The notes beneath the pieces are model-generated. The model was not told the origin of the DNA, ran no database searches, and saw only the letters and a program-made list of their open reading frames with translations. Below, in pieces: positions 13,568 to 25,465 of a stretch of DNA of 64,000 nucleotides. The translations under genes were made by a program, and so were the position numbers. Every line of letters begins with the position of its first letter. The stretch's first letter is position 1. This DNA is from Aquiluna borgnonia (GTDB taxonomy: Bacteria > Actinomycetota > Actinomycetes > Actinomycetales > Microbacteriaceae). The DNA is taken from the NCBI RefSeq assembly GCF_013283855.1, contig NZ_CP054056.1:620001-684000 (forward strand). The letters are read 5' to 3'.

Positions 13568-13573
13568 CCAAAG

Positions 13574-13592
13574 AGCTTAGGTGAGTTAGTAT
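13574..13592. promoter_or_regulatory. Back-to-back -10 boxes of pepA and the PAC2 gene
   Basis: Minus-strand TAAGCT (13574-13579) stands 6 bases before the pepA GTG. Plus-strand TAGTAT (13587-13592) stands 6 bases before the PAC2 ATG. The whole space between the two start codons is 31 bases, so each -35 region would overlap the other gene's start. Both transcripts would be leaderless. Confidence 0.5.
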
Positions 13593-13598
13593 CTGGAC

Positions 13599-24315: not shown

Positions 24316-24597
24316 ATGGCAACTGATTATGACGCTCAGCGCAAAAATGACGACGATACCGAGTCCATTGAGGCAATCAAGGAGCGCATCCCCTCCAAGC
24401 CCTCGCTTTCTGACGATGACGCTGACAACGCGGATAGCTTCTCAATTCCTGATGTAGTGAACGAAGAGCTAGAGGTGGTCATTCTGCCTCAGCAGGAAAA
24501 TGAATTCACCTGCGTCAGCTGCTTCCTCGTAAAGCCTCAGAGCCAAATGGCTTCCAAAACTAAGCTCGGCTCAGTTTGTACGGAGTGCGCTTACTAG
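24316..24597 (+). CDS. DUF4193 zinc-ribbon protein
   Basis: Small conserved actinobacterial protein of unknown function, 93 aa. The N-terminal half is acidic and probably disordered (DADNADSFS). The C-terminus has CVSC, then 18 residues later CTEC, a likely zinc ribbon, ending in the family's CAY. The last 27 bases overlap the end of the convergent DUF3093 gene. The start is ATG with weak purine-rich sequence upstream. Confidence 0.88.
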   Translation: MATDYDAQRKNDDDTESIEAIKERIPSKPSLSDDDADNADSFSIPDVVNEELEVVILPQQENEFTCVSCFLVKPQSQMASKTKLGSVCTECAY

Positions 24598-25011
24598 TTC
24601 CTCTGCCCGACGAGTTGAAACAATTAGGTAGGGCGTTGGATCCTCGGGATCCGTAATTTCGATTCGAACCGCGCTCCTAATGTCTCCGCGAATAACCAGC
24701 GCCGCACGCGCGCTGAGTTTTGGCCCAAGTTCGTCCCGAAGATCCGATTGCGAAATTACCTTGAACTCTCCAATGGCCTCTCGCGGCAAGGACACACTTC
24801 CGGCCATAACTCGGAACTCGTCTATTACGACCAGAGGGCTCGAAAGCACTGAGATAGCGATCAAGACGATCGTTGAAAACCCGGCAAGGACTAGCGCAAG
24901 CGACCAGCCAAACGGCGCTGCCGCCAATAGCACCATAGGGAAACTAAGGCTGTAGGCAGCCAACAGGCCGACCGATGGGTAGAGTCTTTCAACAAACTGC
25001 GGGTTGGTCAC
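24571..25011 (-). CDS. DUF3093 membrane protein
   Basis: Conserved actinobacterial protein with two transmembrane segments (about residues 16-35 and 38-60) and a soluble C-terminal domain, 146 aa. The function is unknown. It is divergent from dut, as in many actinobacteria. The start is GTG at 25011, with TAATGT 6 bases upstream and no ribosome binding site. Tail-to-tail overlap with DUF4193 is 27 bases. Confidence 0.88.
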   Translation of the reverse strand: MTNPQFVERLYPSVGLLAAYSLSFPMVLLAAAPFGWSLALVLAGFSTIVLIAISVLSSPLVVIDEFRVMAGSVSLPREAIGEFKVISQSDLRDELGPKLSARAALVIRGDIRSAVRIEITDPEDPTPYLIVSTRRAEELVSALRTN

Positions 25012-25017
25012 CCAAAT

Positions 25018-25027
25018 ACATTACGCT
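25018..25027. promoter_or_regulatory. Overlapping divergent -10 boxes of dut and the DUF3093 gene
   Basis: Minus-strand TAATGT (25018-25023) lies 6 bases before the DUF3093 GTG. Plus-strand TACGCT (25022-25027) lies 6 bases before the dut GTG. The boxes share two bases. Only 22 bases separate the two start codons. This fits a symmetric bidirectional promoter making two leaderless transcripts. Confidence 0.55.
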
Positions 25028-25033
25028 CTAGGG

Positions 25034-25465
25034 GTGAGTTTGGAAGTACTGATTATTGCGGAACCAGGGTTTGAACCTGTTTACGCCAAGCCAGGAGATG
25101 CCGGCTGTGACCTGAGGTCAACTCAGTCACTTATTCTTCCCGCAGGTGAGCGCGCGCTGGTCAAGACCGGTGTTCGCATTGCGATGCCCGCTGGCTACGT
25201 GGGTCTCGTTCACCCGAGAAGCGGGCTGGCAGCCAAGCACGGCATCACCGTATTGAACACTCCGGGGACGGTTGACTCCGGTTACAGAGGGGAATTGATG
25301 GTGACTCTATACAACTCCTCAAAAGAGGATTTCAAAATCGAGACCGGTGACCGAATTGCCCAGCTGGTTTTCCAGCGTTTTGAAACAGCTCGATTCATAC
25401 CGGTTACTGAGCTTCCGGAATCCTCAAGGGGCGACTCTGGCTTTGGGTCGAGTGGAGTGAACTAA
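25034..25465 (+). CDS. dut: Deoxyuridine 5'-triphosphate nucleotidohydrolase
   Basis: Trimeric dUTPase that splits dUTP to dUMP and pyrophosphate, keeping uracil out of DNA and feeding thymidylate synthesis. It is 143 aa. All five motifs are seen: DAGCDLRS, the LVHPRSGLAAKHG block, NTPGTVDSGYRGEL, RIAQLVFQ and the flexible RGDSGFGSSG tail. I start at GTG 25034 (VSLEVLIIAE) because it gives the normal length and has a -10-like box 6 bases upstream; a TTG at 25004 would overlap the divergent gene. The stop overlaps the DUF3710 ATG by one base. Confidence 0.95.
   Translation: MSLEVLIIAEPGFEPVYAKPGDAGCDLRSTQSLILPAGERALVKTGVRIAMPAGYVGLVHPRSGLAAKHGITVLNTPGTVDSGYRGELMVTLYNSSKEDFKIETGDRIAQLVFQRFETARFIPVTELPESSRGDSGFGSSGVN

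Follow-up and report, generated by a model that had tools for sequence, protein, structure and literature searches.

The window analysed here is a stretch of 64,000 nucleotides, corresponding to positions 620001-684000 of a genome that consists of one contig of 1.36 Mb. It contains a divergent gene pair in which dut, encoding a dUTP diphosphatase, is read from the plus strand and a gene of the DUF3093 family is read from the minus strand (Table 1). In addition to its Pfam assignment, dut matches the NCBIfam model NF001862 with 173.9 bits (cut-off 103), and the genes downstream of it are associated with DUF3710 and DUF3159. The two GTG start codons (25011-25009 on the minus strand and 25034-25036 on the plus strand) are separated by only 22 bases, and the sequence of positions 25009-25036, which includes both codons, is CACCCAAATACATTACGCTCTAGGGGTG. 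This region is ordered as the GTG of DUF3093 on the minus strand, six bases, two TANNNT boxes that share the bases TA, a further six bases, and the GTG of dut on the plus strand.

Table 1. Features of the dut/DUF3093 intergenic region and the two related sites elsewhere in the same genome (window coordinates unless stated otherwise).
Feature	Position	Strand	Evidence or remark
Entire gap between the genes, interpreted as a single bidirectional promoter	25012-25033	.	Geometry, genome count, genus conservation
-10 box TAATGT of DUF3093 (putative)	25018-25023	-	6 bases from GTG; TAATCT or TAATGT in 20/20 genus strings
-10 box TACGCT of dut (putative)	25022-25027	+	6 bases from GTG
Nested plus-strand candidate box TACATT (18-bp geometry), mirroring the minus box	25017-25022	+	TANATT in 20/20 genus strings
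DUF3093 gene, 146 aa, GTG start	24571-25011	-	PF11292, E 1.1e-28
dut, dUTP diphosphatase, 143 aa, GTG start	25034-25465	+	PF00692, E 9.3e-37
Second 23-bp site, pfkB-family kinase (325 aa) / 341-aa protein	L090 1501-1528 = G000:C1:1193239-1193266		
18-bp site, menB (294 aa) / menC (324 aa), gap 17 bases	L114 1501-1523 = G000:C1:1238033-1238055		

The bases common to both boxes (25022-25023) are the self-complementary dinucleotide TA, and the -10 elements of the opposite strands thus overlap reciprocally. An earlier note on this DNA had described two -10 boxes overlapping by two bases, each located six bases from its own GTG. The overlap is exact, and the spacing can be read directly off the sequence on both sides; a TANNNT box at the distance appropriate for a leaderless ATG or GTG start is therefore present in both directions. 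From the positions of the boxes and codons, the predicted leaderless starts of dut and DUF3093 would be 23 bp apart, which corrects the separation of about 20 bases given previously. A second plus-strand box, TACATT, is nested within the same core and had been overlooked. Inspection by eye of the bases before the dut and DUF3093 starts of the window revealed no Shine-Dalgarno motif. The proposal that both transcripts are leaderless appears probable given the box spacing, its conservation, and the sister-genus starts described below, none of which has a Shine-Dalgarno-like motif.

To count similar arrangements we used a 23-bp pattern (CAY-N6-ANNNTANNNT-N6-RTG) and an 18-bp pattern (CAY-N5-TANNNTA-N5-RTG). 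The window contains one match to the 23-bp pattern against 0.10 expected, and this within-window evidence is modest because 9 of 100 shuffled sequences gave at least one match. Across the whole 1.36-Mb genome the 23-bp pattern has two matches and its reversed control none, while the 18-bp pattern and its reversed control have one each; all three matches (two of 23 bp and one of 18 bp) are positioned exactly between divergent ORFs. Among the 58 window ORFs left after an overlap filter, 11 have a TANNNT ending six bases before a candidate ATG or GTG start, compared with 12 for 20 other distances together, so leaderless starts appear to be common in the window. This signal is seen at gene starts only, as TANNNT-N6-RTG taken anywhere in the window is not enriched (17 against 24 expected). 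Counts across the genus reach 49 for the 23-bp pattern against 22 for its reversed control, and 31 against 20 for the 18-bp pattern, where the 31 include three dut sites (G398, G157 and G406) that match through the inner box. No clear enrichment was found among 60 genomes of the phylum (110 against 81 and 81 against 104, respectively), and we therefore confine the claim to this lineage. When the genus and phylum loci are taken together, frames of at least 80 codons occur on both sides of 20 of the 56 tested 23-bp sites and 16 of the 48 tested 18-bp sites. The sites with such two-sided frames comprise the pairs named in this report and others, including L170, L199, L235, L236, L237, L240, L246, L263, L274 and L290; several fall inside longer open frames.

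It is the conservation of the arrangement that we regard as decisive evidence against chance. The complete 23-bp pattern is present at the dut/DUF3093 site in 20 of the 22 genomes of the genus and was not found in G399 (64% complete) or G401 (77% complete). For 12 of these 20 matches (the window and 11 loci) similarity confirms both proteins; for G207, G290, G322 and G375 the dut gene matches and, on the minus strand, an open frame begins where expected, and for G400, G404, G406 and G408 the evidence is the string itself. Counting also the letters that the pattern leaves free, the core TA[G/C]ATTACGCT occurs in all 20 strings. The dut box TACGCT is retained in 20/20 genus strings and in 45/45 loci of the 23-bp form in the sister genus, and the same arrangement is seen in named relatives (the Aquiluna records L006-L009 and Rhodoluna limnophila, L012). 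The earlier note had proposed examining whether both boxes are kept in relatives; boxes and spacings are conserved in 20 of 22 genomes of the genus, and the core in all 58 usable loci of the sister genus.

This sister genus (g11) is presumably Rhodoluna, since the L012 and G454 loci agree across the gap. We searched 60 of its genomes, a sample of a larger group, and retained 58 with a usable dut start after dropping G419 (C-terminal part of dut only) and G460 (weak match). The string TA[G/C]A.TACG lies upstream of dut in all 58 loci, and in 45 of them the boxes are arranged in the 23-bp form; across these 45, 10 of the 11 core letters never vary and the eleventh is T in 34 and C in 11. When measured to the nearest in-frame ATG or GTG at least four bases away, the distance from box to start is six for dut in 38/58 loci and four to ten in the other 20, so that some dut mRNAs may carry a leader of a few bases. 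For DUF3093 the distance is six in 50/57 loci (one contig ends too early) and seven or nine in the others. None of the motifs GGAG, GAGG or AGGA was found 4-16 bases upstream of any of these 58 dut or 57 DUF3093 starts. Both genomes examined from a third genus (g81) also carry the core, at a distance of six bases on the dut side and seven on the DUF3093 side. Beyond these genera, the shared geometry at dut was seen in none of 19 regions representing 18 other genera of the family, none of 9 additional loci from the family (three belonging to genomes already represented among the regions) and none of 45 named loci outside the family (L014-L058). By eye, other genera of the family (L103, L084, L109 and similar loci) have an ATTCGACCA-like element upstream of dut and near the DUF3093 start, which is absent from the gap in the window.

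The inner box is implicated by two observations of different weight. The first T of TANATT is not demanded by the pattern and is invariant in 20/20 genus strings, which is weak evidence alone because the preceding A is invariant as well. Stronger evidence for an inner plus-strand box comes from the remaining 13 of the 58 sister-genus loci, in which the core is TAGAATACG and the ATG of dut lies six bases after TAGAAT. These loci have the 18-bp geometry with a gap of 17 bases and still six bases on the DUF3093 side. A 68-row tree built from DUF3093 plus the N-terminus of dut groups them in a single clade (ultrafast bootstrap 100, SH-aLRT 99). In this tree, which was drawn with a midpoint root, rows of the genus and of g81 are nested within those of the sister genus, so deep branching is not settled by it. 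As rows with the 23-bp form surround the clade on all sides, a single change from 23 to 18 bp is the simplest reading. Four of the 13 loci (L204, L206, L208 and L209) have TACGAC or TACGTC in place of TACGCT, as would be expected of a box that has fallen out of use. The C and G of TACGCT (25024-25025 in the window) are invariant in 13/13 clade loci, beyond what TANNNT needs.

Related arrangements occur at two other gene pairs of the same genome (Table 1). The second 23-bp site separates a pfkB-family kinase from a protein that has no Pfam match and, by eye, the look of a membrane protein; the pattern recurs at this pair in 12 of the 22 genomes of the genus, all protein-checked. The 18-bp site separates menB and menC, genes of menaquinone synthesis, and this form was protein-checked in 14 of 22 genus genomes (including L172, where menC matches in two pieces) and found by core string only in four more (G157, G398, G399 and G405). 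A string containing TAGGCTA is found at an 18-bp match in four genus genomes (L181 1501-1523, G252, G409 and G410), and L181 does not have 80-codon frames on both sides. Two-sided leaderless patterns with separate boxes (gaps of 24-54) gave 10 matches in the window's genome, eight of them with gaps of 31-47 and flanked on either side by frames of 89 codons or more, indicating that double-leaderless pairs are not restricted to shared boxes. One divergent pair within the window, at 13568-13598, has TANNNT-N6-RTG on both strands with separate boxes and a gap of 31. Three shared-box pairs at two gap lengths, set against eight distributed over 31 lengths, hint that box sharing is preferred, although the numbers are small.

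We consider it probable (approximately 0.8) that the 22-base gap is a bidirectional promoter cut to its core, from which both mRNAs would be leaderless. This reading draws on sequence, geometry and conservation, on sister-genus gene starts that have no Shine-Dalgarno-like motif, and on the recurrence at two further pairs and the change of geometry in one clade. RNA polymerase, presumably with the housekeeping sigma factor, would recognize a -10 box without an evident -35 element and could open the same DNA in either orientation, one DNA step serving both because TA is its own complement. The predicted start of each transcript is the first base of its GTG, seven bases beyond the box, and with both starts so placed there would be two leaderless mRNAs and a promoter that fills the gap. 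Several points count against this reading, namely that the dut distance varies, that TANNNT-N6-RTG is unenriched across the window, that 2 of 22 genomes have no pattern, that there is no clear enrichment in the phylum, and that the core is kept beyond the needs of TANNNT. One core presumably could not hold two polymerases at once; the relevance of such exclusion, and any effect on expression, would depend on promoter strength. Coupled expression of dut and DUF3093 through polymerase exclusion is only possible, because the basal activity of five tested E. coli bidirectional promoters is reported as too low for competition; in the same organism, activating one side of a bidirectional promoter could repress the other (PMC12825309).

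The extended conservation could also be explained if the core were mainly the binding site of a regulator controlling both genes, with its likeness to -10 elements being secondary. Ten of 11 letters are invariant in 45 loci, beyond TANNNT, and the same C and G persist even where dut uses the other box. However, it is within three overlapping TANNNT boxes, set at a fixed distance from the starts, that the conserved letters lie, and we consider a regulator improbable. A regulon site was rejected as a candidate: the core of the relatives, GATTACGCT, is matched three times in the window's genome, none of them at a site arranged like this one (exact matching only). Alternatively, dut alone might be promoted in the gap, the minus box being a by-product of -10 symmetry and DUF3093 having its promoter inside dut. 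Several loci of other genera without the shared geometry do have a TAC.CT-like box before dut and a DUF3093 start farther away (by eye), which suggests that the dut promoter predates the shared form. We find this version very unlikely given the DUF3093 starts placed six bases from the minus box in most sister-genus loci, the same spacing in 20/20 genus matches (albeit selected for it), and the uniform lack of Shine-Dalgarno-like motifs before DUF3093. Transcription of both genes from inside the opposite gene, yielding mRNAs with leaders and a gap without a promoter, would agree with the several starts that some actinobacterial genes have (PMC3898074) and is highly improbable in view of the six-base spacing on both sides, the conserved boxes and the missing Shine-Dalgarno-like motifs.

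Returning to the bidirectional promoter, a more elaborate and tentative proposal, which we hold to be possible and rather doubtful, is that three boxes are nested (plus TANATT, minus TAATNT and plus TACGCT) and that the geometry depends on where the start codon lies. In the Rhodoluna-like clade, a shift of the dut ATG to a point six bases downstream of the inner box would have turned the 23-bp form into the 18-bp form, and the outer box would then have begun to decay. Selection might hold two genes on one polymerase landing site, where each would limit the output of the other, in small genomes with perhaps few regulators. The dut/DUF3093, pfkB/341-aa protein and menB/menC pairs would then represent three such devices.

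Bacterial bidirectional promoters have been described in which a pseudo-symmetrical -10 is used from both strands (PMC12825309; on a Salmonella plasmid, PMC10268837), with 7-25 bp between the divergent starts and 18, 10 and 23 bp as common values. The predicted distances of 23 bp for dut/DUF3093 and of 18 bp for menB/menC and the sister-genus clade coincide with these common spacings, and as both have been published the mechanism is of a known kind. The earlier note had pointed out that both products are protein-coding; this is not exceptional, since mRNA synthesis is described as the most frequent association of bidirectional promoters (PMC12825309; Warman et al., NAR 2026), and mRNA on both sides is the usual case. 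Unlike the known examples, the messages predicted here are leaderless on both sides, so that start codons bound the promoter, and the geometry, at predicted starts, is maintained between species and shifts in one clade from 23 to 18 bp. Neither PMC12825309 nor PMC10268837 uses the word "leaderless" in its main text. With regard to leaderless promoters, TANNNT is reported at 73% of primary starts in Mycobacterium tuberculosis with no -35 motif identified (PMC3898074), and ATG or GTG at 1098 of 4979 starts was taken as strong selection (PMC4633059). The present boxes resemble these actinobacterial promoters of M. tuberculosis and other mycobacteria in having TANNNT, no -35 consensus and a predicted start on the first base of ATG or GTG, and differ in that two such promoters share bases. 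The closest case found is the double-leaderless divergent pair Rv1129c/Rv1130 of M. tuberculosis, where the starts at 1254510 and 1254630 are 120 bp apart. Within a partial literature search, by title and abstract, we found no description of a -10 shared between two leaderless genes, nor of a bidirectional promoter that combines leaderless transcripts on both sides with conservation and a change of geometry. The arrangement is a known kind of promoter in an extreme form, in which promoter and intergenic region coincide.

This locus offers a natural, conserved example of a single -10 core that apparently serves two protein genes, and with no leader on either side the control region is reduced to only 22 letters. 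As the 23-bp and 18-bp forms of one promoter exist in living relatives, the preference for particular spacings becomes directly testable, and the same relatives bear on whether polymerase competition is selected for. Arrangements of this type also aid in correcting start codons in small actinobacterial genomes of this sort.
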